A stretch of DNA of 64,000 nt from Branchiostoma lanceolatum. Its lineage: Eukaryota; Chordata; Leptocardii; Amphioxiformes; Branchiostomatidae. The DNA lies in contig NC_089728.1 of the NCBI RefSeq assembly GCF_035083965.1, positions 16,803,955 to 16,867,954 of the forward strand, read 5' to 3'. The notes beneath the pieces were generated by a model, which was not told where the DNA came from, ran no database searches, and worked only from the letters and a program-made list of their open reading frames with translations. The position numbers were made by a program, and so were the translations under genes. The stretch's first letter is position 1; each line of letters begins with the position of its first letter. Below, one piece after another: positions 1,304-44,764 of this stretch.

Positions 1304-3343
1304 TTATTTACACTCATCATTCTTTTCGGGTAGGTAAACTTCAAATGCCATGGATAAATAAAATCCACCTGGAAATGGAGTCAGGCCTTGTACCCATGTC
1401 TCAGAATCCGTGATGTAACTGACAGTGTCTTCGTGGTTTAAGACGTAGATGACACCGTCTTTAACCCCGCACCCCTTGTCGTAAGATATGGATTCGGTCG
1501 CTGGATGTTCTTCTAAGACAGACCACTGGTTAGTGCTCACGTCGTAGCAGTCTACCCCGGGTACGTGTCCGCCTAAGATGTAGATGACGTCATTGACAGA
1601 AGCCATGCAATGGCGGTCTCGTTCCCTGGGTAACTCTGACACAACTTCCCACTCGTCCCAAACCGGGCTATATTTCATCAGAGAAAATATGGACGTGTCA
1701 TAATCTTCAGAACTGATGTAGATGTCGTCTTTACAGACCACCGCCATTCCGTAGTCGGTGGCAAAATTTGGTAGTGGCTCAAGATACGTCCACTTGTCCT
1801 GCAAAGGATCGTATCGTTCGACACTTTGTACGCCATAGTCAAAGTGGAAGCCGCCAATAGCATAAAGGCGTGCCTTGTACTGAATAAATCCAAAGAAGGC
1901 CCTAGCCTCGCCCAAGGGGCACACCTCGGCCCATTCGGAACTGAGAGGATTGTAGGTGTAGACGGTGTGTTGAGGGTCCCCCAGGCCTGAAGCGTGGTGG
2001 CCGGAGCGAGGCTTGCCGTGCCCGCCGGCGATGTAGATGTAGTTGTCTAAGGCTGCAACGGCGAAACCTCGGCTCGGGGTGTCGTCAGGTTTAGAGGCAA
2101 ACGTACTCCAGGTATCCTGTACATACATGGGGCAAGAACAGACATATTTTATATACTACACCACAGAGCAAAGAGAGCGTTTCTTCTAGTTTTGAAAAAT
2201 AAAACACGCTTTCAGTTGTGCCTGAATCTCTGAATGGATTATAAAGCAGGTACATGTTTACGTATCTAACTGGACTGCGCCAAAAGGCCAATTGGCGCAA
2301 TTTGTCTCCAGAAATTGAGATTTGTTTTAGATTTAAAAAAAAGCAATTGACGAAATGCTGGCAATGGGCGAAAATGGCGCAAAACGGTGAATTTTTAATC
2401 TTTGTAAATTTATTTTTTATTCAGTGGCCAACACTGCAATTTCCAAAAAAGTTCTCTCGTATCGAAACTGAAAATGTGACATTTTGTTTGTGTGACCGCA
2501 AGAATTCCCAAAATTGACGCAATTTCATCGCGCAATTTGGCGTAATCCAGGGAGACACTCGCTAGTGAAACTGTATGATGACAAGATATTACACTTTTCT
2601 GCAGTTAAGTTGTATGGTGACATGTATTCGTTGCATTGTTACCATTTTAATTTTATCAGAAACAAAAAGATTGACATTTAAAGGAAACAAATGACACATG
2701 GAAAATACAATCTCACCTTCTTTTCGTCGTACTTCATAAGCTCCCTCGGTCCCGGCTCTGGCCAGAACACGTATCCGTTGTTAATGGCTCCAAGATACTT
2801 CCGGTGGTTAAATCTCGCTTGCAGTAACTCATCCTGCTGTTCCGGCAACAACCGCTTGAAGTCCTCAGTGCGCAGGAACTTGTAATAGTTTCTAGTGATA
2901 ATGTCACCTGCCACTTCTTTGAGTTCTATGGCGTTATAGGCGTCGGCAAGGATGTATAGATGTACACAGTTTCCTTTATTCACCTTTCCCTTCATGTACT
3001 GTAGCAAAGGATGGACTTGAAGGAAGTTGGCCAACTCTAGAATGTAGTCTAAATTCTCGTCTATAACGACTGGCTCGGGGGAATACAAAAAGTCGAGAAT
3101 GATTTCAAAAGCGTCGGCGTCGAAGCCTTGAAGATCAACGTAGTTTTCGAGGCTTTCTCGCATGCCGCATTCCAACATGGCGTCGAAGTAGCCACAAGTG
3201 TGGATGAGGACTACTTTGTGTACGCGGAAGGTCCGTGATTCGACCTTGACCTCCAGGTCAGGGTCACCGTGAACGTGCTCGTATGTGATTTCGTTGCTTC
3301 CGCGCCTGCGCAAATATCGGCGAGTTTTTGGGGCCTCGGCCAT
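1304..3343 (-). CDS. BTB-BACK-kelch protein (gene A), two exons
   Basis: Join of exon 1 (3343 down to 2717, 209 codons) and exon 2 (2116 down to 1304, 270 aa plus TAA), 479 aa. The donor GTGAGA follows 2717 and the acceptor ACAG precedes 2116; the intron is phase 0 and 600 bp. Exon 1 gives a BTB domain (about residues 28-125, containing HVHGDPDLEVKV and FRVHKVVL) and a short BACK region ending in WPEPGPRE. Exon 2 gives kelch blades marked by YIYIAGGH, LYAIGGF, VIYILGGH and VIYVLNHE. The start has A at -3 and G at +4. The family usually supplies substrate receptors for Cullin-3 ubiquitin ligases; that role is inferred. At 479 aa it is shorter than typical KLHL proteins (about 570-620 aa). It is clearly diverged from the three similar genes at 31.7, 34.6 and 58 kb but shares their exon layout. 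The specific orthologue is not recognised. Confidence 0.9.
2270..2550. mobile_element. MITE in gene A's intron
   Basis: The left end CTGGACTGCGCCAAAAGGCC and the right end, read in reverse as CTGGATTACGCCAAATTGCG, form an imperfect inverted repeat, with more GGCGCAATTT / AAATTGCG pairing inside. No coding potential. Confidence 0.6.
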
Positions 3344-3932
3344 TATAGTTTTGATGTGGAAAATCCTTTTAGAGATATGTAAGAAATTTTCAGACTTCGA
3401 TGGAATACAGGGCGACTTTAAGAGCTTCGAATTCCGGATTTAGCTTCCTTCGATATCTCAAAGATTAAGAAAAACGACAATACTGCCCTTGATACATAGG
3501 ATTGCATCAAAGTCGGCGCAAAAGCATGCCTGAAGTTATGGAAACTTTCCTAGTCGGTTTCACGTTGATTTGTTGCCGGGGAGTTGTCTTTTGCCCATAT
3601 TTGGTATCTTTCTGAAAAAGAAATGCAAAAATTATACATAATTATACAAGTCTCAATTTTGTTCATTAGGTCATGACGTCAAAATTAGGTGCATGTATTC
3701 CATGTGTTGGAGCAAAGTTAATCTTCTACGTACCGCGTTAAGTACTGTAGAATTTGAAATGTTAAGCCTCTACCAGGCTTCAGAGGCAACAAACTGTACT
3801 CCTTCAGCGGACTAACTTCTCTGGCATGTTATCTGTCTACTTAGCCAATTTCTACTCTTTCCAGCCGCCTCTGGAGCCTGGTTGAGGCTACGAAATGTTC
3901 GCGGGGATTTAGTTTCGCACACAAGCGAAAAT
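3344..3932. other. upstream of gene A, no gene seen
   Basis: AT-rich sequence that should include the gene A promoter. I see no clear TATA box or repeat apart from a CTCTACCAGGCTTCAGAGGC-like partial palindrome around 3770-3900. Confidence 0.4.
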
Positions 3933-6608: not shown

Positions 6609-6749
6609 AAGCAAGTTAACACTGTTCAACGTTGCAACACTTTTTAAAATCTGACATCGAAGGTGTTAACAGATAGTTCCTTTTTTATTAGTAGCCGTAA
6701 GGAAATGTTTTCAGTTCCGTTGGCTGGCTACATAAATATCTAACGTTAG

Positions 6750-6918
6750 AAGGAAGGAAGGAAGGAAGGAAGGAAGGAAGGAAGGAAGGAAGGAAGGAAG
6801 GAAGGAAGGAAGGAAGGAAGGAAGGAAGGAAGGAAGGAAGGAAGGAAGGAAGGAAGGAAGGAAGGAAGGAAGGAAGGAAGGAAGGAAGGAAGGAAGGAAG
6901 GAAGGAAGGAAGGAAGGA
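6750..6918. repeat. (AAGG)n microsatellite, about 42 units
   Basis: An uninterrupted 169-bp purine tract on the plus strand. It creates artificial Pro-Ser-Phe-Leu open frames on the minus strand and could adopt triplex structure. Confidence 0.97.
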
Positions 6919-7462
6919 TAAAAAGGCCACCCTCTACCGTTGCAGATAGAAGATGGTACACTCCTACAAGTCCTTTAAGATGTCATTCCAAGACGTATAG
7001 CCTGCACTGAGGATGCTTGAGAGACGTGTCACTGGGCATCCGTGCAAGGTGACATTTTTCCTTTTTACGCGAGGAAAGTCTTTTCGAGTTGAGCCCCGGA
7101 CATAACGCGGTAACGGGTGTGTGATGCCCTCTGACACCTGCAACAATCCACGCCTCTCATCATACAGACATAAGCCCGCTATTCGTAGCAGGCAGATTAA
7201 CCTTGCAATGTCTATTAGCATTACGGGTCTTCAGACCGAGTAAGATATATCAATGTTGACTATGTATAAATAATGGCTGACACTTGATGGTGATAATGTT
7301 ACTGTCAGCAGCTGCAGTTCAAGGATGGGGCTCTAGAGGGTGTGTGAAGAATGAATAAGAAATCATGATATTGGGAGGCCTACTTTGGTATCAGCCAGGA
7401 GACCGTGGATGTGTATTTCATAGGATATGCACAGGTCTGGGCGATAAGGGCCAGGTTTCATT

Positions 7463-7642
7463 CGTCGTACGATCGTCGTACGATTGCAAACCGTCGCACG
7501 ACGATAGTACGATTGCAAATCATCGTACGATCGTCGTACGATTGCAAATTGTTGTACGATCGTCGTACGATTGCAAATAGTCGTACGATTACAAATTGTC
7601 GTACGATTGCAAATCGTCGTACGATCGTCGTACGATTGTAAA
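7463..7642. repeat. TCGTACGATTGCAAA short satellite
   Basis: Units of 17-34 bp built from TCGTACGATTGCAAA and CGTACGATCGTCGTACGAT. The palindromes TCGTACGA and CGATCG recur, so either strand can form hairpins. Scattered TACGAC motifs continue to about 7800, and a similar set lies at 30340-30520. Confidence 0.9.
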
Positions 7643-15699: not shown

Positions 15700-18600
15700 G
15701 AATCTAGTGATTGCTGGGTACAGTTATGGTAGTGGTTAGAGAGAAGGGAAGACCGCTAAGTCGGCATTGTCTTACCTGTGTGTGTGCGCCAAAGTCAAAG
15801 GGTTTGCGGTATATGTTTTAGCGAACAGGTCAACCGGATACGCCCTGTGAGTGCGTTTATCAAAGTCGACAACTTCCGCACACAAATTTGTGTACCGTTG
15901 CCTTGCTAGAGATTTTAGGCTCGAGGTTCAAACGCTTCTCTCTTTCTCCTTTTTTTTCCTGAATGGTTTCTCCTGCTTCGTGAGTTACGGTTTCCCATTC
16001 TCCCTATAGATAATCACAGCCTGGGGTTGCTTTCCCCAACTGATCTTGAATACAGACATCTGTTATTTATTCAGAGAGATGGCCTCGGGCGACCAATTTT
16101 CTTTTAGCCCTGACAGGCCTAATGCCTTATACCAAATCAAACTACTGGGGCAAATCGCGGGGACCGTCGGGCTAACGCTAGTGTGCCGCGCCACGAAATT
16201 GAGTTCTAAGCGTCGCTAGGACGGTGTCCGCGGGCAGAATTTAATACCCCGGTCGCTTTCTACTTGAAATTAGCGTCGGGGACCAAACAGAGATGAGCAA
16301 GGAGTTAAATCTTCTGAAATCTGCGTTGGCGTACATTCATCTCGGTGCACAGACGACTTGACTACCGTGTGCAGCCGGCAGGGGCAGTCACCTTTAGGCA
16401 ATACTGGGGCGAAACCTCATAAGATGTTGTTTTCCTCCAAAGGTCGGATGCCTTGAGGCGGGGTTGCCCCTACTGGCGCGAGCTGTGCGTTAAAAGTCTG
16501 GAGAGCTCCTACGACGGCGGCTGCCATTGGCTCGGGCGGGTAGGAATATCCTTGGGAGAGGCTTGCGGCCGTGGCAGTTGCCAGGCCGCCGTAATTCGAT
16601 TTAGTGGGAATGGCGGGGCTCGAAGGCAGCGAGCGCGCCATGTCCGCCGGGTGGGTTACGCAGGGCGCAGCAAGGAGAGAAGAGATAAAGGTTCGGAGAC
16701 GAATCATTACAGCAGGAACCGGTAACCTTTGCTTGGGTTGGCCCGCCAAATTGTGCAACCCAAGTTTTCAGTCGCCACTTTTGAAGACGGCGGCTGAGCT
16801 GTGACTCGAGGGCTTGTATGGGGGTTTGTCATCAGATGATCTCTTAATAGCATGATAGAAATTCAGATGTGGCACTCGGCGTGGTAGCAAGGTTACGCCA
16901 CCGCACAGCAAGGGACTTTCTATTGTGTACCACCGGGGAACGGACAAAAGACGGGGACACGGCATGCGTAGTTGGACAGAGTTCCTCATAGAGGAAAACC
17001 GCCTCGCCACAAATTGTCAATTTTAGTGGCAGTCCTTTAACGTGATGCTTCACTAGTCGTTCATATTCGAGACGGGAAAGATCGTTAACCTTCTCCCTGC
17101 TGCCTAACTCTGTAACCAATAGGAAATCGGGTGCCAAGCGTCTATTTCAGAGTGTAAAGGATTTTTAAAAAAGTCCATGTGAAACAACAAAAGACGTCTT
17201 GCTTTATCAGTGAGTTATCATTGATTGCATCAATACGAGAAATTATGAAATGGTAGATTTGATAAAATTAGTCTACAAAAAATATACACATTTTAGTTGT
17301 CTATAAAAGTTAAAACTTGGCCGTATCATCTTTAAAACACGTATACATAACGGCCATATCCGGAAACGATATCTAGTTACATTGCCCCGTGAATCATACA
17401 CGCACCAGTCAAAAGTACTCCACCGCAGAGAGTTACGCTAGACTAGCAAACTTTATACCATCCACTACCGCCTAGGGGGTAGGGCACTGCGGGCTGCGCA
17501 TACGTACCTATCCTGGACTACGGGATGATATTACGGCATGTCTGTCTCGCTGTTGACGGCGTCACTGAAACGGTGAAGTCCCTATTGATGGATGACGTTT
17601 TGATGCTCGGAGATATGAAAGATGAAATAAACCGAGGGGAAAGAAATCTGGCTAGTGTAGACAGTCGTCTTTAAGGTGTTGTGTGTGCGCGGGGGTTGAG
17701 GAGTCGTTCCATTGCTTAGAAACAGGTGGGCAGACGTTTTTTTTGTGGTGTAGTTGTTCTTTTCAAGTATGGAAATTGTGAAATAGGATTTTATATGTTC
17801 TTAGCGTGTTTATAAACATTTTGTCGGTGATTTTGGCGTGCATGGTTGTATAGGATGTCATATCGGTTTGCAGTGCGAGCTTGTATGCCAAACGCAAGTC
17901 AATGACAGTCGATCGTCAAAAGTAGCTATTTTTGTAGCGATTGTGCTTTAGATAGAGCCTGATAATCTATAGGTGAGTCATTTCAGCAAATATTGCACTG
18001 TAGTTTTTATCTATGGTATCTTTTTTGTCGAAACCTACTGGTATATCACATGTTGATTTAGATGAAAACACTCCTCTCTAAAAGAGTGTTCCATCATTTG
18101 CGAATTTTTTTTTGTCGTGTACGGTTTTCAGCGAAGCCATGACAGATTAGACCGTTGACAAGAATCTCTAACGATATTTACCGTGAGAAGACAGCTGAAT
18201 TTTCCACGACAAATCCACGAATATCTTAAGAATGTCTTGAACTTGTCTTGCGACATACATGGCAGGGTCCTTATTGAATAGCCAAATGGGTATGCTAACG
18301 TAGCCAAGTTGTGTCTTATTGCAGTTTGTTCGTTTGTTTATTTGTTTGTTTGTTTGTTAACAAGATACCCGAAGATGCTCTGAATAGATTACAATGCTTT
18401 TTGCTTCAGGTGGGCTTTGTGTCAAAAACAAGTAGGGTTTTCGGGTACTAGTGTTGTTTTCTTGTGTTACCTGTGCTTGTCTGGACGTGGTGACCAGTTC
18501 TTGGTTCCACTAGCGTCTCTGAAACTTCACTGTGGTTGTCCCACCATTTATATTGTGAACATGAAACATCGTATGTGACATATGAATTTCGATGGCTTTG

Positions 18601-19884
18601 TTATGAGGGTAGTGCTTGTAGAAAGAGTCGGTTTATTTTTGTTGCAATTGATTTTGATTTCGATCATATTCAATGTGAGCGTGCGTTAAGGCTGTAGGGC
18701 TATAGTCCACCTCTGCCCTCCCTCCCACGATAAATGTATGGTAATGTATCAGAAAAAGAGCAAACTTGCTAAGAATGTTGATTATCATAATAAGTGATCA
18801 TAATTCACCAATCTCACAGTTACTGTACTAATACCTCATACAAAACATCGACATAAATGTAGTACAGAGTTACAGAGGTCAGTGCCCCCTCCCTCTGCCC
18901 CCCTCCCCAATTTTCATAATCTCTTGACTCAGATTTTGAACTCTGAGGCCCTCAACTCGATTAAGACATCCCGAGGCGTTCGGCAGACATATAAGAACCG
19001 TTTCTTTTGATCTAAATCACACGCTTTACATGGCCAATTATTTTAATCATCGCCACTTAGGATCAAAGATAGTTCAAGCTGCGTCTTAGGTTTTCCCGGT
19101 CTGAGCCGATATTAATGTCGGACAAATTGATGTCTGGTTTAAAAGAAAGGTTGCTTTCAGTGTCAAATATGGGAATGAGTCAGCATAGACATGAATATAA
19201 ACATGGCATTATCCTTCCGACCGCCTTGGTGGCAACATGTACAAACCCGGTGTAACAGACCGGAATATACCCTTGGTCTGGTTAAACCCCGACAGTGTAC
19301 ACTATGGCTAAGGGTACATTCTGGCTTGTAACACATACACGTTCCAAAACTGCAGCAACCAAGCAGAAGTAAGTTTGCTATTCAAACTGAATATCATAAT
19401 GGGACACGTAGGCTAGATTGAATTGTCTTTTCTCATATATTTCAGCACACATTATTAGATATGGGCAAAACGTCATACTGCGTCCGTACCCAAATCATAC
19501 ACATTCCGACTTTAAAGACCGGACTTACGTCATAATTACAAGGCTGCCCGTAGACTCCTGTATAAAGAGGATAATTGGTGAACTATTGTATCACTCAAAA
19601 CAGCGGAACCTGTTATCTGTTAAGACAGTGCCAGACAAATAGGACAAACAAGGCGGGTTTTATGTGTCATGTCTTAATCGGATTTTTATCAGAAGCTCAC
19701 TTAAGGTTTAAGAAGACGTCTCAATGTCTAGGGAACTGTTCTCTGAGTATCAGGAATCTAAACAAGGTGATTGGGTGGCAGACTTCATCCCCTTACCCAT
19801 ACTGCCCTTGGACCCCTCCAGTTTCACAGACATAACTATATCAGCACTGCCTTTCGTATATTCAAGGAGTTTATTGGGAATCAC
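15700..19884. other. noncoding region upstream of the KCTD gene
   Basis: 16400-16760 is GC-richer and open in several frames, but no domain is seen. A TTTG run is at 18330-18358. If the donor at 15443 is used, this is part of a 5.5-kb 5' UTR intron. Confidence 0.35.
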
Positions 19885-20265
19885 AGATCCAGAGGGTGGA
19901 GGTTCGAACCCCAGAACACAGTGGAAAGGTTGCATTAGTCCTTTCGAATGGTGACGTAAAAATGGTGGCTATGGGGGTAGCTTCATGCATGGACTCAAAC
20001 CTCTGCTCATAACATAACCCAACACTTTTATCGAGAAGAGTAGGGGTGACCTACAGGTCCAAACCCCATTCAGGCGCAGTGTAAGGGGTTGCATTTGTTC
20101 TTTCGGATGGAGACGTAAAGCCGGTGGCTATGGGGATAGCTTCAGGCGTTAGACTTTGGCGTCAAACCTCTGCACGTAAAATGACCCAACACACTTGTCG
20201 AGAAGAGTAAGTATGACCAGTCTGCTTGGCTGAAAAATGGAGCTGTGACACGACGAGCTATCGAC
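19885..20265 (+). mobile_element. two tandem SINE bodies
   Basis: GGAGGTTCGAACCCCAGAAC (B-box-like) then TCGAATGGTGACGTAAAAAT, ATCGAGAAGAGTAGGGGTGA; a second body follows from about 20055 (GGATGGAGACGTAAAGCCGG, GTCGAGAAGAGTAAGTATGA). Confidence 0.6.
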
Positions 20266-20324
20266 AAAACGCCACGCTTTGCCTCAGTCCGATGACAACT
20301 AAACTAACCTTGTTATTTGTGTTT

Positions 20325-20935
20325 GTTTGTATTGCACATCCGGTAAATCCGCCTCATCACGTAACACACCAGGTTTTTTAAAATTTTTTATTTACCATGT
20401 GACACGTCGCTTATCTGTAGTGACTCATGAGGCAGAGACCGTAGATGCTGCTATAACCTTGTATTCTAGTCTTGGGTTAGTAGTGTACATTGCCGTGTGC
20501 TCAGTCCCGAGTCCATGTGGGAAGAGATCGTATTACTTCAAACTGTCTTTCTTGGGGCACTCCTTATTCGATATTCATGGTGGGCTATTCTAAGTCACAT
20601 AAGTGCTGAAGGTTTGTACTGAAGAGTACAAGCTATATAGCCAGACAGATTTATTTGATCTACCGACACCGAGAAGGACCCCTACTCTTTTCGATAAGTC
20701 TGGTGGGTTCTTTTACGTGCTCGATGGGGCACTCCTCAATCACCGGACTTCCAGTTAACTTCCGAGGGACGTCCCTAACCGAAGCTAGGTACTATTTTTA
20801 CCTGAGTGTAGGGAGGAAATGTGTTTTTCTCAAGAGCACAACACGGCAAGTCAGAGGACCCAGGATTCGAACCCAGGAGCGCCATGTTCTGGGCCAAACA
20901 CCCTACCATTACGCACCATTATTCGGCGACACCGC
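20325..20935 (-). mobile_element. long-form SINE split by a nested insert, just upstream of KCTD exon 1
   Basis: 20325-20378 and 20608-20935 together match the SINE at 11030-11420 (CATCCGGTAAATCCGCCTCA; GGTTTGTACTGAAGAGTACA; minus-strand B box CTGGGTTCGAATCCTG). About 230 bp at 20379-20607 interrupts it. The SINE head ends about 60 bp before the KCTD start codon. Confidence 0.65.
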
Positions 20936-20974
20936 GACCTTGACTGACTACAAATGTTTGTATACCACCTTCAG

Positions 20975-20993
20975 GTCCGTATTAGTCGTCGCC
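20975..20993 (+). promoter_or_regulatory. possible 5' UTR of the KCTD gene after an acceptor
   Basis: The bases CCACCTTCAG end at 20974, 19 bases before the KCTD start codon, and look like a moderate splice acceptor. This would let a noncoding upstream exon, such as one ending at 15443, join here. The pyrimidine tract is weak, so this is a suggestion only. Confidence 0.3.
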
Positions 20994-23900
20994 ATGGAGA
21001 CCAACGGGGTTCAGGTGGTAATGTCGGGGATCCCCAGGGTGGCGTCCCCGTGTCGGGAGAAGGCGCCCGTGCACATCGACGTGGGCGGGCACATCTACAC
21101 ATCCTCCCTCTCCACACTCGCCAAGGTACGATCACTCACACCTCCTCCGTCCCTCCAAACTCGCCAAGGTACAACCACTTACACCTCCTCCCTCCCTCTC
21201 CACACTCGCCAAGGTACGATAACTTACACATCCTCCTTCTCCACACCCGCCAAGGTACAACCACTTACACCTAGGCCTCCGCCCTCTCCACACTCGCCAA
21301 GGTACAACCACTTACACCTCCTCCCTCTCCACACTCGCTAAGGTATGACCACTTACACATCCTCCTCCCCACACTCATCAAGGTACAACAACTAACACCT
21401 CCAGCCTCTCCACACTCGCCAAGGTACAACAACTATAGCACCTCCTCCTCTCTCCACACTCGCCAAGGTACAACCACTTACACATCCCCATTTCTCCACA
21501 CTCGCAAAGGTACAACCACTTACACCTCCTCGCTCTCCACACTCACCAAGGTACAACCACTTACACCTCCTCCCTCTCCACACTCACCAAGGTACAACCA
21601 TCTAAACCTCCTCTCTCCGAAATCCCCAAGGTACAACCACTTACACATCCCTCCTCTCCACACTCGCCAAGGTACGATAACTTACACCTCCTCCCTCTCT
21701 CTCCACACTCACCAAGGTACAACCACCTACACCTCCTCCCTCTCTCTCCACACTCACCAAGGTACAACAACTATAGCACCTCCCCCTCTCCACACTCGCC
21801 AAGGTACAACCACTTACACCTCTTCCCTCTCTCCACACTCGCCAAGGTACAACCACTTACACCTCTTCCCTCTCTCCACACTCGCCAAGGTACAACCACT
21901 TACACCTCTTCCCTCTCTCCACACTCGCCAAGGTACAACCACTTACACCTCTTCCCTCCCTCACCACACTCGCCAAGGTACAACCAGATTTATATATTGC
22001 AAGAACGAATATGTTAGTCTTTTGAATAGAAATAACGAGAGAGATACATGTATAAAGAATAAAAGATAAGAAGAAAGAGAAAGACCATAACGGAAAAAAG
22101 CAAGAAATTAAATAACCAAAGCAAGGAAGAATGCAAGAAAGGAAGAAAGGAGGCTAGAGAAACATATAATAATGCTCCAAACATTGTCCTTCCGTCTCAA
22201 TGTCAGTGCTGGCTACATACATGTACGTAGGCTGTTTCTGTTCCAACTTTTACTTCAGTTCCAACCGTCTCTGAAGTTAACATGTGTGCATATTTCAGTA
22301 TCCGGAGTCCCGGCTGGCACGGCTGTTTAACGGCAGCGAGCCTATCGTGTTGGACAGTCTGAAACAGCACTACTTCATCGACCGGGACGGCGAGATGTTC
22401 GGCTTCATCCTCAACTACCTCCGCACGGGCAAACTCCTTCTGCCGGACGACTTCGGCACGTTCGACAACCTTTATGAGGTATAGAAAAATCTTTATCTAT
22501 TGAAAAATTTTTACACGTTATTAATTCCGTACATGTACACAGATTTAGACCAGTACTCTGGTCCTTCCCAAGTTGGTTTGACCCGAAGCCTACGTCACTT
22601 GACCTGAGCGGAAGTGTGACGTCAGCAACAGCTCAAAGGTGCCCGGAAGTCGGTGTCGGCCCCCGTCTCTGTTGAGGGATAGTCGATAGGCTCTTATGTA
22701 GATCGCCTCTTTCACTCGTCTTAGAAAATAATTATTTTCTCCATCTATATAATTAAGGACATGCCCAAAGCCATGATATAAAATCCATCTATCTCTTCTT
22801 GTGTTATCCTCTTTCGTAGTCTCCAACAAAAACGCCCCTGCAGTTTCCGAGAAAACTGTTAGGGGGCCCAAACCGACACCACTTTTTCAATAGTCCAAAA
22901 GCTATATTCCACCAAAACATTGTGACCACAGAAGGTTAACAACACGGGATACAAAACACAGAAGTTCTGCTGCAGCACTGTTCAAAGCCACTAGGGGACC
23001 ATGATCGACATTTTGCTTTGTTTTACTGATGATACCCACATAACGTACCAGACGTCGTAAAGATCCATCTTCAACCTTTTCAGTTATGCTATTCTCCTAC
23101 TGATATTCCAGGTAGTTGAATTCGTTCGCTCGCTCAGACCCTTGGCACATAAGGTAGCGGGTCTTCTTGCTGCACCAGTAGCGGGGTATATTTCTTACAG
23201 TGAGAGATTGCTAGCCATTCCCCTTTATGTTTAACGTGCTAGAGGCACCTTCTCGAACACGGGACCCCCATTTTACGTCCCTTCTGAAAGGCCAGTGTAG
23301 CCCCAACCGAGATGCCCTTACCCGGGATTGAACTGGGGTCCCCCAGTTATCAACTATTTGGAACCAGGAGCTCAATTGTGAGGCTTGTACCAGTTGAGCT
23401 AGAGGGACATCCCTGGTAGTTGAATACACAGAAGGAGAAGACGAACTTTATTGCGCGACAATTGTAACTGGTACAATGCTTGGCAACTAACACGCATACA
23501 AGAACAATGATTCAGCCAATCAAACCGTCATAACCTCCCTCAGACCTAAACTTCAAAGCGTTTGACATCCGCACAGTGACAGTATAATGGTGTGCTAGCT
23601 AATGAGTATGCGTGCCGTGATTTCCGGGACGTGTACAGACGTATGGACAAGAAGTCAGCCAGGCTGTACCCCAGAGTGCGCAGGCTGTCTGGAAAAGAAG
23701 GCTTGATCAATATTCCGCGACGTCTTGTCGATAGCTCTTTGCGTAGAATGATTTCTGGCACTCTTGTTATTGAGGTCTTTCAGATCCATCAGAATGCGCA
23801 GTACAATTGAGACATTTTCTTTTTTTACCATCTCTTAAGCTTTGTTTTTCAACCTTTATTTCATGGCAAAATAATTAATACAGGTTGAATGGACCTTAAT

Positions 23901-26789
23901 ATTTTCTTTGACTTGCGATTAGACGGAATATTTGGGTTTCCAATCTAGTATTAGTAGCTTATATTTGTTCGTGTCTTTTTTGTTATCAAACTGTGATTTT
24001 GTTGTTGTTGTTGTTGTCGTCTTCTTGATCTTTTCTTAATTTTGTTTCTGAATATATTTACTAACAGTTCTAAGGTTTAACATTGATGTCTCTGTTCGTA
24101 GGTAGAAATATAATACATATATAAGTATGCAAGATAACATTTACTGAAGCAGAATGCATCTCATTATTGCAGCACAGGTATCGCTGCTTATAGATGCGTT
24201 CCCAAACGCAAAGTATTTACATATATACAGTCACAATGTTTTTTGCTCGATAGTTTTGTATCTAACATCTTAACTGTCTCTTCCGTAGGAAGCACGATTT
24301 TTCGAGATCCACCCTTTGGTCGCCGACTTGGAGAAATGGCGGGAAGGAAAATACTACCACAAGATCTGTGACGTCATTGTGGTACACGTCAGCCCCGAGC
24401 TCGGCGAAAGGGTGAGTATGACGTCATCAGCTATAAGGTTATAAGTTATAATGATTGCTACACATAGAATACAACACGGTGTATTCCGTATCAACCGAGG
24501 TATCACACTGAACACCTAACTTTCACACATCTAGCTGCAAACGTCGTTTTTAGTGAATATGTCTCTACTGAACTAAGTATTTTTAACACACCAATGCTAG
24601 GTTGATAACTCTATCACTTGAAGGAATGACTAATCCATCACCGTCATCATCATAATCATTTTTTTCATTTTTTCCATGAAAGATGTTGTCAGTTGTTTGT
24701 TGTGTATTTGGTGCTATGTGTACGGAATTTCCTGAATGTTTCCACACACAACTAAGCAATTTAATACTTCATCATCTTGGAGTAGGGGTCCTTCCCGGTG
24801 TGATTGGATCAAATAAGTTTGTCCAAATATGTAGTTTGTACACTTCAGTACAAATCTTGTTCGCAAAGCAAGCAAACTAGAAAAAGACTTTTAAAAAAAA
24901 TTTGTCGTTCTGTAGGTGTGTGTCAGCGGGGAGAGAGCGCTGATCGAAGAATTGTTTCCGGAGGTCAGTGGTGCCGTGTGCAACTCTGCGCATGCGGGGT
25001 GGAACCACGACGCGCACCAGGTCATCAGGTTTCCGCTGAACGGGTTTTGCAGTCTCAATTTCGTGCAAGTGAGTCACAAGATTTTTCTAACGGGTTTGTT
25101 CAATGCAAGGCCAAAATCGACTACTTCTACAACTATGTTGATGGGATATGGAGACGATCATTAAAAGAGATAGCGATGAACATTAGTTGTGAAGGCTTGC
25201 AGGTTATATGCGTGAGGGAAACAGTTGTCATCGAGAAAGTTTGGCAGTTCGTGGAAAGAACTTGTTGCTGTAGAAAGACTTTGAGACTTGTAATTGAAAG
25301 GTGTAACAATATGAGCTAGAGGAAAACCTAGTGTCGCGCTGAAAGATTCTCAATGGAGGGACAAAGTGTGTTATCCTTTTCCGAAGTCTCTTAACAGAAA
25401 CGCCCCTGCAGTTTCCGAGAAAACTGGTAGGGGTCCCAACCGACACCACTTCTCCCAGAGGCCAAACGCTATAGTCCACCAAAACATTGTCAACTCAGCA
25501 CGTTCAGAACTTGGAATACAAAACACAGAAGTTCTGCTGCAGCACTGTTGACAGCCGCTAGGGGACCGTGATCGACATTTTACTTGTTTTGCCGACATAA
25601 CCCACTTACAAAACGTCGTAAACATCCACCCACAATCTATTGAGTTATGCTTGTAAGATTATTGAAACAATGGCCGTAAAAGCACCGATAGAAAAGAGAC
25701 AAGTAGGCAATGTTTTGCCTGTGAGAGAGGGACCAGGCTTTGATGTCAACTGATATCATGATAGGCAATGTCCGTACCATCCCGTGGTATCCCGTGCCAT
25801 CTTGGCATCCACTGTAAGACCGTCGATTTGCTGAAAGGAGAATTGCCCTTCTATTAAAACCTTTCCACAAAAATAACCTTGGCTAAAACAAAGCAATTCC
25901 TTACTAGGTAAAGGCTACAGTTTCCCCGTGCATCCCCCCACCCCTATGATCTATCACTGTATGCTGAGCAAAATATGAACCTTCCGAGTAAACATTTTGG
26001 TGTCAAAATTTTCATCCTCGTGGAACTCAATTCCAGGTTTAATAGTCATCAAGTTACGATTCCACGTTATACAGAAAGACTTAGGAAGCAGATTTAGGGA
26101 AAGCCTTCTAAAGACGTGGTATATTGGCATCAGAGTAGAAAAAATCCAGACGTGTCGGCATTGTTGCCTGCAGCGGTTGTCACGTTTAGCTGACAGGGCA
26201 CAGATGATCAGAGAGGGCCCGCTGCCAAGCCAGGCAAGCTGCGGGGCGAAACCTCGCCCCCAACCGCCCGTTATGCACACTTGAATCGGGCATCAATGTT
26301 TGTCTTTCTTAGAGCTATAAGGTCGTCCACACTTTAAAGTACACATGTGCAGCAACAGGAATTGGTGAAGGCGCCTAATCTGTAAACAGTTTTGGTCTCG
26401 ACCGTTGTCCGATTTGCATAACATTGAATGTTCAGGCGTGTTTTGTTTATGCCTCCGGGCCTTCACCTTTGACATTACCCACAATTCCTGTTGTCGTGCA
26501 TGCGTACTCGAAAGTGTGAACGACCTTATTGACGAAAATATGATGACTAATGGTCGTAGATTATACACGTTTGTGTCGTTCAAAGTGATTTTTTTAATCT
26601 TAGAAGATCTGCTAAAGTTTTGAATGTTTTATTTTTTTACAGGTGTTGCAGAGGATGTTACAGAACGGACTGAGGATTCGTGCATCATGTGGGGGAGGGG
26701 TGGAGAACTCCCAGTTCAGCGAGTATGTGCTGTGCCGTGAACGAAGAGTCCCCCCTGTCAAAGTAAAGGAAGAGCCCATCGAAGACTGA
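20994..26789 (+). CDS. KCTD15-like: KCTD1/KCTD15-like BTB protein, five exons
   Basis: Join 20994-21125, 22299-22478, 24289-24411, 24916-25068, 26643-26789; 44+60+41+51+48 = 244 aa, and every junction is phase 0. The BTB/T1 domain begins at [25 protein letters not shown] residues (about 24-44) and continues through [19 protein letters not shown] in exon 2. Exons 3-5 give the C-terminal domain ([30 protein letters not shown]). The last residues [10 protein letters not shown] hold VKEE, a psi-K-x-E SUMO consensus like the tail of vertebrate KCTD15. In vertebrates KCTD1/15 are nuclear BTB factors that oligomerise and repress AP-2 dependent transcription in neural crest; transfer of that role is inference. 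The start has a GCCATGG context; a second in-frame ATG nine codons on (MSGIP) is an alternative. The upstream open frame is repeat-derived. Intron 1 begins inside a minisatellite that duplicates its own donor. Confidence 0.93.
21085..21985 (+). repeat. minisatellite derived from KCTD exon 1 end and splice donor
   Basis: About 20 imperfect units of roughly 38-50 bp run from the last codons of KCTD exon 1 into intron 1. Each unit carries a version of CTCTCCACACTCGCCAAG followed by GTAC and then a CACTTACACC-like stretch. The first unit is coding (SSLSTLAK) and contains the real donor AAG|GTACGA at 21125/21126. I count 21 AAGGTA sites up to 21981. Unit boundaries vary because the CTCC tract changes length. 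Confidence 0.92.
22800..23100 (+). mobile_element. interspersed repeat 'CTGCTGCAGCACTGT', KCTD intron 2
   Basis: CCCCTGCAGTTTCCGAGAAA, CCAAACCGACACCACTTTTT, AGAAGTTCTGCTGCAGCACT and CCACTAGGGGACCATGATCG. Collinear with 25380-25640 and, more loosely, 38380-38730. Confidence 0.75.
23215..23415 (-). mobile_element. tRNA-derived SINE, 'TGTCCCT' type, KCTD intron 2
   Basis: On the minus strand TGTCCCTCTAGCTCAACTGG, then CCCAGTTCAATCCCGGGT (B box), then GGGACGTAAAATGGGGGTCC. Collinear with the copy at 11655. Confidence 0.85.
24765..24870 (-). mobile_element. SINE 3' fragment, KCTD intron 3
   Basis: AGTAGGGGTCCTTCCCGGTG and GATTGGATCAAATAAGTTTG then TACACTTCAGTACAAATC match blocks of the long-form SINE at 11.1 kb in opposite orientation. 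It ends 45 bp before exon 4. Confidence 0.55.
25380..25645 (+). mobile_element. interspersed repeat 'CTGCTGCAGCACTGT', KCTD intron 4
   Basis: CCCCTGCAGTTTCCGAGAAA, CCAACCGACACCACTTCTCC, AGAAGTTCTGCTGCAGCACT and CCGCTAGGGGACCGTGATCG. Apparent open frames here are repeat-derived. Confidence 0.75.
26317..26529. mobile_element. TIR MITE in KCTD intron 4
   Basis: ATAAGGTCGTCCACACTTTA at the left; in reverse the right end reads ATAAGGTCGTTCACACTTTC. Pairing continues to CAACAGGAATTG on both sides (about 48 bp). It lies about 110 bp before exon 5. Confidence 0.85.
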
Positions 26790-31694: not shown

Positions 31695-33383
31695 TTATAT
31701 ATCCTGCCGTTCAGGAGGCAGATGCACCACGATTGCTTTGTTGGCGTTACACCCTCCCGGGAAGGCTGACAACCCCTGCACCCAAGTCTGCGCCTCCAGG
31801 ATATAACATGCCATGTCATCACTGTTTAACACGTAGATCGTCCCGTCCATTTCTGTACACCCCCTCTCATAGTGAATCGCTTCCGTGGCCGGATGGTCTG
31901 CAAGTACAAACCATTGTTTTGTGGTGACGTTGAAGCAGTCAACACCGGGAACGAGTCCACCAAGAAGGTAGATGGTTTCTCCCACCGCGACCATACTGTT
32001 CTTGTCCCGTTTTCTGGGCAGGGGAGACAGAATCTCCCATTGGTTGATGCCTGACACATACTTCAGAAGTGCAAACTTCTCGGTCTCTTCGTCTTCCGAG
32101 TTGACGTAGATATCTCCCTTGCAGACGACGGCTAGATCGTAGTTAGTCCAGTCTCCAGGTAACGACCGTCTGAACTCCCACCTGTCCTGTTCAGGGATGT
32201 ATCGTTCCACAGATTTTACCGTATAGTCGTACTGGTAGCCACCGATGGCGTAAACAGACCTATCGTGGATTACAGCTCCAAAGTAAGCCCTAGCTTCGTT
32301 AAGGTAACGAATCTGGAACCACTTGTTCTTGACAGGATCGTAGCAGAAGCACACGGATAGGACGTCTCCGAGGCCGGAGGCATGGCCGAATCGCGGTTTG
32401 CCGTAACCGCCAATGACGTAAATGTAGTTGTCCAATACAGCTACACCCCATCCCCGTCTGCAAGCTTGCTCCGGCTTTTCTGTGAAGGTTTTCCAGACAT
32501 CCTGCCGATAAAAACACAGAAAAGTGTTACATGACGTTACATACATAAGTAGAGTGAAGTCATAAGCTCGTTCAAACTTCCGAGTGCGCATGCGCCGCAT
32601 GCAGTTTGATGCAAGTTCCTTGTTCTGAACTTTTCATCTCACCGACCAAACTCCGTCTACTCATATGTATGTCGCCGTTGTGTCACAAGCAAGTTTAACA
32701 AGAACTGTACGCCTATTAATTTGCATACATTTCCTTCCAGCCACACTTTGTCCATAATTTACCTTGCAGTGATCGTAATACATGAATTCCCTCGGACCCG
32801 GCTCTGGCCACGTCACATACCCCGTGTTCATACCGCACAAGAACTTCTGGTGTCTGAATCGCGTCTTCCGAACCTCTTCTCGCTGTTCCTCCCTCAGCTC
32901 TTCGAAAACTTCCGAGCGAAGAAACTTCAGATAATTATCCCCCATCAGCTGTGCTGCAGTTTCCTTCAGATCACTGATGACGTAAGTATCAGCCAGCATG
33001 TACAGATGGACACAGTTCTCACAACTGAGTTTACTCTTGATGTAGTCCAGAATTGGCCGCATCTGAAGAAACTGTGCCATCTCAAGAACACTTTGTAGTT
33101 CATCGTCCATTTTGATTGGTTTTGACTCGTACAGAAAGTCCAGGACGATTCGAAACGCTTCAGCTGTGAAGCCGTGAAGTTGGACGGAGTTTTCCCGACT
33201 TTCTCTCATGCCGCTTTCCAACATGGCGCGGAAGTATTCCGACGTGTCCATCAGGACCGTCTTGTGGACGTGGAAGGTGCAGTCTTGAACTTTGACCTGG
33301 AGGTCAGGGTCACCGTGAACGTGATTGTACGAGATCTCGCCGCCGTTTCCTCTAAAGCTGGTCTCTGGCTTTGTCAACGCCAT
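31695..33383 (-). CDS. BTB-BACK-kelch protein (gene B), two exons
   Basis: Join of exon 1 (33383 down to 32763, 207 codons) and exon 2 (32501 down to 31695, 268 aa plus stop), 475 aa. The donor is AAG|GTAAAT, the acceptor CGGCAG|GAT, the intron phase 0 and 261 bp. I chose the ATG at 33383 (MALTKPE) because it has an ACCATGG context and matches the N-terminal length of genes C and D; an in-frame ATG at 33416 is the longer alternative. BTB is about residues 22-125 (CTFHVHKTVLMDTSEYF), BACK follows (NCVHLYMLADTYV), and kelch blades show YIYVIGGY, VYAIGGY, IYLLGGLVPGVDCF and IYVLNSDD. Probable Cullin-3 adaptor by family. It is nearly identical to C and D outside a few kelch loops. It is divergent from C, with 1,261 bp between the start codons. 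Confidence 0.93.
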
Positions 33384-33406
33384 GGTTTTTATCCTATTGA
33401 TTTGGA

Positions 33407-33467
33407 CATCAATCAATCAATTAATTAATTGATTGATTAATTAATTAATTAATTAATCAATCAAACT
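33407..33467. repeat. AATC/AATT tetranucleotide microsatellite with dyad symmetry
   Basis: Runs of AATC, then ATTA, then GATT, then AATTAATC lie about 25 bases upstream of the gene B start codon. The order makes the tract able to fold on itself. It is probably in the gene B 5' UTR or core promoter. Confidence 0.8.
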
Positions 33468-34644
33468 ATTTGAACAAATCAACAAAACCATCCACACAAA
33501 TTCGTATTGCACATAGAACTAGGATTCTACGACCCTCAAATAATATAACCCTTACGACTGACGTATTACAAACGTATAGTCTCTAAAAACATAACCTTCT
33601 TGGCGAAGGTAACAAGAAGACAGTTATGGATTATATCTGAAAGATTGCCAAGCAGTTCATAACAAACACGATGCCATACGCACATGCCATCTGCCATTCC
33701 ATTCTATTTTTGGAAGGCCGGCCGCCAGGACCAAAACGTACATGTGGCTCGAGCGGGATTGATTGATTATATACAGCAGACAGGAATATTTCAGGTTTGT
33801 TCAAATTAGATGGAATTGTCTTGGAAAATTGACTTATGATAAGACATAACAAGAAGTCAAGATGAAAGTTTAGCATAGATTTTAACAGCTATTACATGTT
33901 GAAAAATAATGATCATATGGATTTGCGAATATGATACATGGGGCAGCTGTTGATTATGACACTGCCATGGCACGGGGAGTACTGTACGTTGAATCTACAT
34001 TTTTTGTTTTCAAATCAAACAATTTGCTGTATGAAAGACAAAACCAAACCTCTGTTATTGTCTGGACGATGGCGGAGGGAAGTGACACATCTGCTTTTAG
34101 AACTCAAGGTCAGAGGGCAGCTCCAAAACGGTAATAAACTTGTGACTTGTGTGCAATCAGGTCACGCTCGTGCGTATGTTGACATCTGGCGATACGCAAT
34201 TGTCTTTTAGTAAGTAGAGGATCGACCTATTAGTATCTTGGTTCTAGTTGCAACATCAAGCTTATAAGTCTGATGATTTTGGTAACGCCCCAGGAGTTAG
34301 CCTAATAGTATACCATATGTCCGTTTGCTGCTGTTGCAACCAAAAGCATGGCAGTTATGAGAATTCTTCCCGTCACTATAGCGGATTTAGATCTGATATA
34401 CTAGACTAAAGATTGATCCATTCAGCAGCCAGAAGACGTTCATGTGATTGAAGTAATTAATGGAAGACAAACGCTTCATGTTCAAGATATAGCCAACTTC
34501 TTTGGGAATTAACAGCAATAAGCCATAAACACATTATTTCAAACACTATGCCAACAACGTTTTTTTCAGCAATCATAACATTACCTAAAACGTTCCATGG
34601 TATGTTGACATTACGTTCTTGAACTTGCAGGATAGGAAACTCTA
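33468..34644. other. intergenic space between divergent genes B and C
   Basis: It should contain both promoters. A GGCCGGCCGCC block is at 33717 and an acceptor-like TTGCAG at 34630. No gene or TATA box is supported. Confidence 0.35.
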
Positions 34645-36571
34645 ATGGCAAAGCCTATTGCAATCTCCAGCGTCGGAAGGCTCAGTGATGAGATCTCGTA
34701 CAATCACGTTCATGGTGACCCTGACCTCCAGGTCAAAGTTCAAGACTGCACCTTCCACGTCCACAAGACGGTCCTGATGGACACGTCGGACTACTTCCGC
34801 GCCATGTTGGAAAGCGGCATGAGAGAAAGTCGGGAAAACTCCGTCCAACTTCAAGGCTTCACAGCTGAAGCGTTTCGAATCGTACTGGACTTTCTGTACG
34901 AGTCAAAGTCAATCAAAATGGACGATAAAGTACACAGTGTTCTTGAGATGGCACAGTTTCTTCAGATGCGGCCAATTCTGGACTACATCAAGAGTAAACT
35001 CAGTTGTGATAACAGTGTCCATCTGTACATGCTGGCGGATACTTACGTGATCAGCGATCTGAAGGAAGCTGCAGCACAGCTGATGGGGGACAATTATCTG
35101 AAGTTTCTTCGCTCGGAAGTTTTCGAAGAGCTGAGGGAGAAACAGCGAGAAGAGGTTCGGAAGACGCGCTTCAGACACCAGAAGTTCTTGTGCGGTGTGA
35201 ACACGGGGTATGTGACGTGGCCAGAGCCGGGTCCGAGGGAATTCATGCACTACGACAGTTCAAAGGTAAGAATATTGTTGGATATGAGATGGCTCACCAG
35301 TATTTCAATTTGTACAGACCATTTAGTGATACGAGGGGAAAGAAAACGACACACACATCCGACTCATAGTTCGAAGATCTCAAGCCTCCGTTAGATATCT
35401 ATAATCATAATAGAGTGTCTTGTTTGATTATTGAAAGTATGTGATGCATTACTTTTGCCATCGACAAACCTGTAAAGACACAAACAGACAGAGCAAAAAT
35501 GATATCTCCCCGGTGAATAAGTAGCCTCTTCCATTGACCCCATGACCTGGAATGTTTGTCATTTTTTATTTTCAAAAAATAGTTCTACCAGCTCTGAACT
35601 CTATTTCCTGTCACTCCCAGAAGTCTGACCTTTGCGCTGACACAATCTTTCTCACTCACTTCCTGTCACTAATGTATTCACATAACTACGAACATACCAC
35701 CACCATATACTGATCATAAGTAAATATTTCTTGTTGTTCTTTTTACATGTCTGTCCGTCTACAGGACGCCTGGAAAACGTTCGCTCACAAGCCAGAGGAG
35801 GCGGGCAGAAGAGGATGGAGCGTGGCCGTTCTGGACAACTACATTTACGTCATGGGAGGGTACAGCAAACACTTTCTAGGACACCCCTCTGGCGATGGTG
35901 CCGTCCTAGGGGATTCCTTCTGCTTCGATCCGGTAAAGAACAAGTGGTTGGAAATACGTCCTATGAACGAGGCTAGAGCCTATTTTGGAGCTGTGGCTTG
36001 GAATAACTCTGTTTACGCTATTGGAGGGTTCCAGTATCACTATCCTGTCAAATCTGTGGAAAGATACATCCCTGAACAGGACAGGTGGGAGTTCAGACGG
36101 TCGTTACCTGGAGACTGGACTAACTACGATCTAGCTGTCGTCTGCAAAGGAGACATCTACATCAACTCGGAAGACGAAGAGACCGAAAAGTTTGCACTTC
36201 TGAAGTATGTGTCAAACATCAACCAATGGGAGATTCTGTCTCCCCTGCCCAGAAAACGGGACAAGAACAGTATGGTCGCGGTGGGAGAAACCATCTACCT
36301 TCTTGGTGGACTCGTTCCCGGAGTTGACTGCTTCAACGTCACTACAAAACAATGGTTTGTACTTGCAGACCATCCGGCCACGGAAGCAATTCACTATGAG
36401 AGGGGGTGTACAGAAATGGACGGGACGATCTACGTGTTAAACAGTGATGACATGGCATGTTATATCCTGGAGGCGCAGACTTGGGTGCAAGGGTTGTCAG
36501 CCTTCCCGGGAGGGTGTAACGCCAACAAAGCAATCGTCGTGCATCTGTCTCCTGAACGGCAGGATATATAG
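34645..36571 (+). CDS. BTB-BACK-kelch protein (gene C), two exons
   Basis: Join 34645-35265 (207 codons) and 35765-36571 (268 aa plus TAG), 475 aa, exactly the length of genes B and D. The donor is AAG|GTAAGA; the acceptor is CTACAG|GAC after a good pyrimidine tract; the intron is phase 0 and 499 bp. BTB spans about residues 18-125 (CTFHVHKTVLMDTSDYF), BACK to about 195, and kelch blades are seen at YIYVMGGY, VYAIGGF, IYLLGGL and IYVLNSDD. The kelch C-terminal half from EFRRSLPGDWTNYDLAVVC onward is nearly identical to genes B and D, which suggests recent duplication or gene conversion. The ATG context is weak (C at -3), and TTGCAG|GA at 34630 looks like an acceptor, so an upstream noncoding exon is possible. 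Probable Cullin-3 substrate adaptor by family. Confidence 0.93.
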
Positions 36572-38735: not shown

Positions 38736-41700
38736 GCTGTATTGTTGTCAGTGTGTGTATAAATGTAGTCTTTGTTTGTGTATAAATCATGACCTAGCTG
38801 TGTCAGTATTTACGCATGGCAGTCCGCATTACTTAAGATACGCAGTAAATATTGTGACTCTATTCAGTATTTTAAGGTATTGCAAACGTTAACCAATATA
38901 TGTGAGGCCTTTGGAGGCGATAATGATGTCAAATTCTGTAATAAGAAAACCAATTGTAATATTTCTCATGTCTCCGCCTACATTCAAATGGTGCACCATC
39001 ATCAAATTTCCCCCAACCTATCCGATGACGATTCTGTTAGAAAAATAACTATACAGCTCTACGCAAATTTTCTCTCACGTAGATTCTACATCAGTTATCG
39101 ACACGGGAGAAGGTCCGCGACGGAGATATTAGTAACTTTAATACAACAGAGCCATAACCAAGATGGCGGATGGGTACCACCTGGGCACGTGACCATTACA
39201 TCATAACATTACGTCATAACATTAACATAATACATGTGACGCTACCTATGCTCAGCCGAGGTGAAGCGCATTCTTTCTATGTCACTCCGCTTTGCCATGA
39301 ACTGCGCACAACTTTGGACCAACCACAGTGCCGGTGCTATGCAGACACTTCGGGTGGCGCACGGTGACGCTTTTGAAATGTTAATGTTCTAGCCAAGGAA
39401 TCTCATTGAGACTTGTATATATATCACCCAGCACATGTTGTAAGTGCTCATTATCATTCAAAACTTTATTTATGAATCACTACTCTAGACAAATTATCGA
39501 AGAGGTTTTTATTGCTGCAAAATCACACTTACATGACGATGTAGAAAATTCATCCTCAAATTTCGGATTAGCATTTTGACTCATTAGATATGTCCCTGAT
39601 TTTGATAAAATAATCCAGAATTTATATACTTTGGTGTCTGTTTCGGCTGTAGTATATTTATTTGCGACTGGTGGGGTGTCGATGTAACTACACTGTACAT
39701 TGTTGCCCAAACTTGAGTGTATAAGAAGGCTTTGGAAAGTGGAAACACAACAGGAGTGATTCAAGAAACATTAATCTACACCCCTGTATCGTGTATACAT
39801 ATAACAATGAGTCCTTCAAACGCGTTAAGCTTTTCAATATTCACAAACTGACGCAAGTTATCCGGCATGCAGGAAAACAAGTCGGCCATTTTCCTATTCT
39901 GATCTTGTTTACATTATCAATGAAAAATAATCCCGCAAAGAAATAGATTACACAACATTTCGCTATGTTTTTAGATAATCAATGAAAAGATTTTACTCCA
40001 CAACATATACAAGCTGTTTACCTTGTCCATGAAAATTAAAGTGAATACAAAAATGACGGGTAATACAAGGTAAGTCACACGTGCTGGTTATGCATGTAAA
40101 CCACAACATCCACTTTCGAGACAATTTAAGTTGCTACTATTCATGATAGGCCAGTTCTTGACACCTCTACGCATGCGCTTTGGGAACTACACCTCAGCGT
40201 GTGCGGCCCAAAATCCAGGACAGTGAATACGAAAGTAACCGGTAATACGTGGCAAATTACATGTCTTGCTTATGCATATAAGCCACAACATCCACTTTCG
40301 AGACAGTTAAAGTTGCTACTATTCATGAGAGGCCAGTTCATGACACCTCTACACATGCGCTTTGCGACCAACACCAGAGCGTGTGCGGCCCAGAATCCAG
40401 GACGGTGGGTGCACTGGTAGACTAACTACCAGAAGAAAATAGCACATCAAAACAGCCAGATGTCATAACGATCCATCTACCCCTTTCTTGAGTTTTTCCT
40501 TCAAAGTTTAAAACAAAATCGGCTCCTGCAGTTCCCAAATTACGGAATACGAAATACATGTATGACAATCCATTCAGGCATTCTCGAGTTATCGTGTTGA
40601 AAAATTAAACAGACACACACACAAAACCTTCTCGGTGGATGTCATAAACATTGAAACAATATAAAACAATTGCATGGTTTCTTAATCAGTTGCGCCATGT
40701 TGTTTATGGATTGAGGCAAAACTTTAGGGACTAGTATTTAATCATTTCAACAACATAGGAATGTTGATATTGCAAACTATTGTTACTGCTCAAAACAATA
40801 GGCTAAATGTTGTGTCCATTACAGGAAGTTTTAGAACTGTATTTCTCCTAGCATATGGTGTAAGTGTTTATAATTATTCAAAACTTTATTCATGTATCAA
40901 TAGACCGTAATTCTCGAAGAGGTGTTTCTTACTGCAAATCGATTCTTAGATTTTGGATTAGGATTTTAAGATATTGGATATATCCCTGATTTTGATAAAA
41001 AATAAGCAATAGTTTATATAATTTGGTGACTGTTTAGGCTGTAGTACATTTATTTTTCAATGCTGGGGTGTCAATTTTACTTCCTTGTTGTCCAAGCTTG
41101 TGTATAAGAACGTTTTGGAAAGTGGAAACACAACACGAGTGAGTCAAAGAACACTAGTCTACACCCCTGTATCGCATACATATAGATATGAGTTATTTGC
41201 GCTTTTCAAAGATTTTCAATATTCACAAACTGACGCAAGTTATCCGGCACGCAGAAAAACAAGTCGACCATTTTCCTATTCTGATCTTGTTTACGTTACC
41301 GATGAAAAATAATCCCGCAAAGAAAAATATTACACAATATCTTGCTACATTTTTTAGCTAATCAATGAAAAGATTTTCTCCACATTATAATGTCCACAAC
41401 ATAAACGAGCTCTGTTCCTAGCCAGGAAAATCACTGTAAATGCGAAAATAACGGATAAAACGTCGCAAGTCACACGTGTTGGTTATGCATATAAACCACA
41501 ACACCCACTTTCGAGACAATCTAAGTTGCTACTATTCTTGAGAGGCGAGTTCATGACACCTCTACACATGCGCTTTGCGAACAACACCAGAGCATATGAG
41601 GCCCAAAATCCAGGACGGTGAATACGAAAATAACGGATAACACGTTGTGTCACACGTGTTGGTTATGCATATAAACCACACCATCCACTTTCTTGACAAT

Positions 41701-42970: not shown

Positions 42971-44764
42971 ATTAAAGTAGCTACTATTCATGATAGGCCA
43001 GTTCAGGACACAGCTACGCATGCGCTTTGCGAACAACAGCGGAGCGTACACGTTTGCGGCCCAAAATCCAGGACGGTGGGTGCACCGGTAGACTAACTAC
43101 CAGACCGAAACAGCAGATCAAAACGGACAGATGTCTTAATGATCCACCTACCCCTTCTTAAGTTTGTTCTTTCAAAGTCTGAAACAAATTAGGCTCCTAC
43201 AGTTCCCCAAAATGCCACTAAGTTCTGTTCCGGTATCATAAAAAGTTACTAGGGGCCCAAAATCTTATTATTTCGAGGTCTTACAACTACATTCCCACCT
43301 ACGGAATACATGCATGACAAACCATGCAGGTATTCTAGAGTTATCGTGTTGACGAACAGTAACACACGTACAAACTCTTTGCAAAACATATGCCTATCTT
43401 TAGCTTGTGTACGTTATCGATAAAAAACAGTCCCTGCAAAGAATAACACGATATCTTGCTAATTTTTAGATTATCAACGAAAACATTTCTTTCCACAACA
43501 TAAGCTCTGTTCCTAGTGTATGAAAATGACAGTAAATACGAGAATAAAGGATAATAGTTTGGAATTAACACGTGCTGGTTATGCATATAAATCGCAACAT
43601 CCACTTTCGAGACAATCAAAGTTGCTAATATTGATGAGAGGCCAGTTCATGACACAGCTACGCATGCGCTTTGCGACCAACACCAAAGCGTGAGCGGCCC
43701 AAAATCAAGGACATTGAATATGAAAATAGCGGATAATACGTGGTAAATCACACGTGTTGGTTATTCATATAAAACACAACATCCACTTTCGAGACAATTA
43801 AAGGCGCTATTATTCATGAGAGGCGAGTTCATGACACCTCTACACATGCGCTTTGCGACCAACACCAGAGCATATGAGGCCCAAAATCCAGGACAGTGAA
43901 TACGAAAATAATAACGGATAATACGTGGTGTCACACGAGTTGGTTATGTATATAAAGCACAACATCCACTTTCTTGACAATTGAATTAGCTACTATTCAT
44001 GCTATTCATTTTTTTTGTGATTGTTGCGATGTCAATTTTACCCCCCCCCCCTGTTGCCCGAAATGTTTGGTGTATAAGGAGGCTTTGGAAAGTTGGTACA
44101 CAACACGAGTGAGTCAAATTTAAAGAACATTCATCAACACCCCTATGTCGTATACATACGAAAATGATTTCTTCAAACGCTTTAAGCTCTTCAATAGTCA
44201 CAAACTGACTCAAGTTATCCGGCACGCAGGAAAACAAGTCGGCCATTTTCCTTTTTTGATGTTGTTTACGTTACCAATAAAAAAAGCCCGCAAAGAAATA
44301 GATTACACAATATGTTGCTACTTTTTTTAGATAATCAATGAAAAGATTTTTTCCACAACACAAACAAGCTCCATTCCCTGTCCATGAAAATTACAGTGAA
44401 TATGAAAAATAACGGATAATATGTGGTAAGCCACACGTGTTGGTTATTAATATAAACCACAACATCCACTTTCGAGACAATTAAAGTTGCTACTATTCAT
44501 GAGAGGCGAGTTCATGACACCTCTACACATGCGCTTTGCAATCAACACCAGAGCTTGTGCGACCAAAAATCCAGGACGGTGGGCATGCACTGGAAGATTA
44601 ACTACTAGACGGAAACAGCTGTTATAATGATCCATCTACCCCTTCTTGAGTCTTATCTTTTAAAGTTTAAAACAAAATTGGCACCCGCAGGTCTCAAAGA
44701 GCCGATAAGTTGCGCTGCAGCGTCATAGAAAGTTACTGCTTATCTAACCATGTCTTACAAATAT

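Follow-up and report, generated by a model that had tools for sequence, protein, structure and literature searches.

The KCTD1/15-type gene and the array at its first splice donor

The window (the whole 64,000-nucleotide stretch of Branchiostoma lanceolatum contig NC_089728.1 that was analysed, to which all positions refer) contains a gene of the KCTD1/15 type, a family with developmental roles, in which five phase-0 coding exons give a protein of 244 amino acids (Table 1). The joined translation of exons 1 and 2 aligns gap-free across the junction with solved-structure KCTD1 chains, covering residues 11-104 at a best E of 5.6e-41; the top matches of this kind are chains named KCTD1 and KCTD15, which we take to be human, plus two designed proteins. 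Because the alignment with KCTD1 runs gapless through ...TLAK|YPESR..., the predicted canonical junction is 21125|22299. Exons 3-5 were located with an approximate KCTD1-like query, and a Pfam search, for which a version of the predicted protein carrying three wrong residues was used, identified BTB_2 (residues 26-115) and KCTD1-15_CTD.

Table 1. Features of the KCTD1/15-type gene and of the minisatellite at its exon 1 donor
Feature	Position	Strand	Basis
Coding exon 1, 44 codons, phase 0 end at AAG|GTACGA	20994..21125	+	Translation; gapless KCTD1 match across the junction
Exonic part of unit 1, coding for 10 residues	21096..21125	+	Unit alignment; aligned with YTSSLATLTK of KCTD1
Intron 1, 1,173 bp, acceptor TTTCAG|TAT at 22298/22299 not repeat-derived	21126..22298	+	
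Intron 1 part of the minisatellite with its 20 later units, all containing AAG|GTA	21126..21986	+	Tandem Repeats Finder; AAGGTA count; unit alignment
Unit 4 AAG|GTA; donor 21254, sole alternative with an open reading frame (+43 aa)	21252..21257	+	Frame analysis
First in-frame stop on the exon 1 extension; donors 6-21 lie beyond it	21339..21341	+	Frame analysis
Three consecutive identical 43-bp stretches (donors 21803 to 21932)	21804..21932	+	Sequence
Exon 2, donor GAG|GTATAG	22299..22478	+	KCTD1 match
Exon 3	24289..24411	+	KCTD1-like query
Exon 4, KCTD1/15 C-terminal domain	24916..25068	+	KCTD1-like query; Pfam
Exon 5 with stop codon	26643..26789	+	KCTD1-like query

The last ten codons of exon 1 are the start of a minisatellite (21096-21986; 21.0 copies, period 41, 83% matches, score 1103 in Tandem Repeats Finder) that fills 861 bp of intron 1, and each unit comprises about 30 exonic and 11 intronic bases from around the exon 1 donor, so that the repeated segment lies across the exon-intron boundary. 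AAGGTA is present in all 21 units, at spacings of 39-47 bp between neighbouring AAG|GTA sites, the last exonic-type bases being 21125, 21168, 21213, 21254 and so on to 21977. Elsewhere on the forward strand of the window AAGGTA occurs 18 times, which corresponds to 0.26 expected per array-length stretch against the 21 observed. An earlier note on this DNA had described the end of exon 1 and its donor as the first unit of an array with about 20 further copies, each retaining AAGGTA, and this description is borne out, as are the positions it gave for donors 1-4 and on the acceptor side; its interpretation of the array as an amplified functional exon-intron boundary is supported. The array most likely arose from unit 1, judging from the position of its exonic part within a stretch conserved with KCTD1. 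A search of the window for further copies of the unit at up to 3 mismatches gave 13 matches, all within the array, and the unit has no exact match in viral_contigs, a collection in which an animal repeat is not expected. Rfam gave no match at gathering score in 18000-26000.

Divergence of the units

The units have a mean pairwise identity of 83%, and 19 of the 21 are distinct, differing outside AAGGTA. Similarity is uneven along the array: units 18-20 are identical, units 15 and 16 are 96% alike, and units 21 and 1 share 89% and 82%, respectively, with their neighbours. The identical stretches are a sign of recent homogenisation or expansion. The exonic parts of the copies look free of coding constraint: the 10-residue peptide of unit 1 is still encoded by only one of the 20 copies (unit 6), and two copies (units 5 and 17) have a stop codon within the 30 nt before the donor.

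In the unit alignment, the six columns of AAGGTA are the sole run of that length in which nothing varies, the 45 inferred changes being spread over 40 columns. The probability of such invariance depends on the null model: it is 0.0007 for the AAGGTA columns themselves, 0.017 if a run of six may lie anywhere and 0.11 when column counts are shuffled, all based on a single neighbour-joining tree built from short units. The units were delimited by AAGGTA itself, and no spacing is long enough to conceal a lost AAGGTA. The invariance is not firm evidence of selection; some constraint on AAGGTA may exist.

Donor strength and consequences for the reading frame

At position +5 of the donor, units 1, 3, 6 and 14 have G and the remaining 17 have A, so that 17 of the 20 copies have A where the authentic donor (21125) has G. 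By an approximate donor matrix, which underlies all scores given here, the units with +5G score 7.5-7.9 bits versus 3.7 (3.68) for those with +5A, and units 3, 6 and 14 equal or exceed donor 1. The inferred donor of exon 2, at 3.58 bits, is no better than the +5A copies, and those of exons 3 and 4 score 10.0 and 9.15 bits; the inferred donors at which the BTB exons end in four KLHL-type genes of the window (see below) score 8.38-10.83 bits. Donor 1 is therefore weaker than six of the seven other inferred donors of the window, and weak donors such as the +5A copies cannot be called dead. The G at +5 of the true donor could be due to chance, since G is found there in four of the 21 units, the true donor included. 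U1 duplex energy was rejected as a discriminator, all 21 units falling between -5.6 and -5.7 kcal/mol.

Use of a later donor would extend exon 1, and according to the frame analysis 19 of the 20 alternatives would truncate the protein. By length alone, nine of the 20 alternative donors are in frame and 11 shift it (13 of the 20 spacings in the array are not multiples of three), but eight of the nine lie past the first in-frame stop at 21339; from donors 2, 3 and 5 a stop is reached in exon 2. The sole alternative donor that keeps the frame open is donor 4, whose 43-aa insertion would fall after residue 44, inside the predicted BTB domain. If truncated products are not tolerated, donor 1 should therefore be the one favoured by selection. 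Because most copies both truncate the protein and carry the weaker +5A, the sequence leans against their routine use.

Acceptor-like features of the units

The exonic part of the unit is pyrimidine-rich, so that each AAG|GT resembles a weak acceptor with a donor directly attached. Pyrimidines make up 75-85% of positions -24 to -5 before AAG|GT in all 21 units, a level of at least 75% that is found at 12 of the 412 AG|GT sites elsewhere in the window (both strands, array omitted), and a branch-point-like yTnAy lies 27-34 nt before the boundary in 16 of the 20 copies; as the units are copies of common origin, these counts amount to one observation repeated. If 21125 were spliced to any of the later AAGs, AAG|GTA would be restored at the junction, so that stepwise shortening of the array could still give the canonical exon 1-exon 2 join, and the array would then be a series of zero-length recursive splice sites, self-erasing, which would explain its tolerance. 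This is quite improbable: the acceptor offered by the array is AAG, a weak acceptor trinucleotide, whereas the gene's own four inferred acceptors, with 50-75% pyrimidine, end in CAG or TAG.

Relation to known repeats at splice sites

Repeats of this anatomy, called mirages, are known from lancelets in Adh3, the globin genes BflGb6 and BflGb9 and troponin C, with similar repeats in PGBD5; the published accounts report that they involve a 5' or a 3' boundary, that AG/GT signals are kept in many copies, and that regular splicing is undisturbed (PMC3087553, PMC3902484). Differences in length between haplotypes and somatic instability at Adh3 have been described (PMC3087553, PMC3902484), and the units of the Adh3 mirage are given as 10-72 bp. 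A further mark of mirages is homogenisation of the inner units to the exclusion of those at the boundaries; in the KCTD1/15 array, units 18-20 are identical and units 15 and 16 are 96% alike, and units 21 and 1 match their neighbours at 89% and 82%, values to be set beside the mean of 83%. BflGb6 is stated to have 6 and 3 units of 150-160 bp in two haplotypes and BflGb9 a 157-bp duplicate; splicing of the globin mirages was examined by RT-PCR, and the authors suggested that the copies could serve as cryptic sites (PMC3087553). The KCTD1/15 array resembles these mirages in that its units span an exon-intron boundary and keep AG/GT in every copy, and by its anatomy it fits among them, although it differs from the globin examples in having 21 units of 39-47 bp. 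It would thus be a further locus for a kind of repeat already known, with more units than in the globin genes. The claim of the earlier note that a minisatellite at a boundary is unusual in kind does not hold against these precedents and that of human IFI6. No KCTD mirage was named in the literature searched at the level of titles and the starts of abstracts, from which absence from print is not claimed.

A donor minisatellite in human IFI6 (6-16/G1P3) was reportedly described by Turri et al. in 1995; its unit is 12 bp long and keeps the reading frame. One account of this repeat states that it supplies alternative donors, of which two downstream units are used (PMC4526556). The KCTD1/15 array is like it in starting at the end of an exon and in having units that resemble donors, and unlike it in that the unit does not preserve the frame, given its spacings and the truncation that would follow from nearly all copies.

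Interpretation of the array

The array is probably a largely neutral, unstable minisatellite of the mirage kind that was seeded at a splice donor and is spliced mainly from unit 1. A 41-bp segment over the exon 1 donor, comprising 30 exonic and 11 intronic bases, would have undergone tandem duplication and then grown into intron 1, through either unequal exchange or slippage during replication; most pre-mRNAs would be spliced from the first donor, with its +5G, to 22299, the copies leaving with the intron, and occasional use of a later copy would yield mostly truncated products. The route of expansion, the preference for donor 1 and the near-neutrality are what we infer. The reading is supported by the identity of units 18-20 and the likeness of units 15 and 16, as in tandem turnover; by the shared anatomy of published mirages, which reportedly leave splicing undisturbed; and by the unconstrained exonic parts of the copies together with their prevailing +5A versus G in unit 1. 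It is weakened by IFI6, in which downstream repeat units do act as donors.

That precedent (PMC4526556) is the closest parallel for a reservoir of alternative donors, some of the copies being used to give length-polymorphic or regulated isoforms. Such a role would accord with the retention of AAG|GTA by 21 of 21 units, with the similar predicted strength of the exon 2 donor of the same gene and with the in-frame insertion available from 21254, but 19 of the 20 alternative donors truncate the protein, 13 of the 20 spacings are not multiples of three and the one in-frame insertion would land within the BTB domain, so that a reservoir appears unlikely. The 21 AAG|GTA sites at most 900 bases from the end of exon 1 might also form a platform or decoy for the U1 snRNP, many U1 sites near the start of a transcript slowing splicing or suppressing premature polyadenylation; with just five contiguous pairs per site to the 5' end of U1, worth about -5.6 kcal/mol, and the +5G missing in 17 of the 21 units, this is very improbable. 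The roles that the earlier note suggested for the array, namely competing donors, a U1 snRNP decoy and an effect of array length on splicing, are all judged rather unlikely.

Intron gain by tandem duplication, for which Rogers, Hellsten (2011) and Zhuo (2007) are cited in the literature, would reverse the order of events, the array having made intron 1 out of an exonic segment bearing AGGT. The array has the requisite tandem copies of an AG|GT-bearing segment, and its units combine AG|GT with a pyrimidine tract and, in most, a branch-point-like motif, as described for such cases (PMC4974935). An intron gained in this way would lie between duplicated exonic copies and take both of its splice sites from the repeat. 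The acceptor (22298|22299) and the 312 bp that separate it from the array are, however, not repeat-derived, the unit is not continued in exon 2 and there is no new intron position, which indicates growth at an existing donor and makes this origin extremely unlikely. An equally slim chance attaches to an assembly artefact, which the identity of three successive units would suggest and because of which the exact copy number may be off; 19 of the 21 units are nevertheless distinct, with scattered substitutions and indels, where simple stutter would yield identical copies. If confirmed in RNA, the locus would offer a natural multi-copy test of 5' splice site choice among 21 near-identical sites.

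Other features of the window

The window holds four BTB-Kelch (KLHL-like) genes or parts of genes, at 1304-3439, 31695-33416 and 58017-60110 on the reverse strand and at 34636-36571 on the forward strand, identified by a Pfam BTB match on 59406-60110 and for the remainder by eye from the translations; the BTB exon of each has an inferred end at AAG|GT. ARAGORN detected no tRNA anywhere in the window. An open frame of 244 aa (49978-50712), for which Pfam gave no match, contains a 117-bp (39-codon) tandem repeat of 2.8 copies at 50154-50486.

Several other repeats are present. A tandem repeat family of 163-165 bp forms two arrays of opposite orientation (60709-62189 and 63500-64000), one aligning to the reverse complement of the other over 504 bases at 91.9%, and a single 182-bp unit occurs in two arrays, 40040-40407 and 43568-44001 (331-base alignment at 87.3%). 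Perfect tetranucleotide arrays are found at 6749-6918 (GAAG, 42.5 copies) and 48105-48238 (ATCT, 33.5 copies), and an array of 29-bp units at 7462-7642 is rich in the palindrome TCGTACGA.
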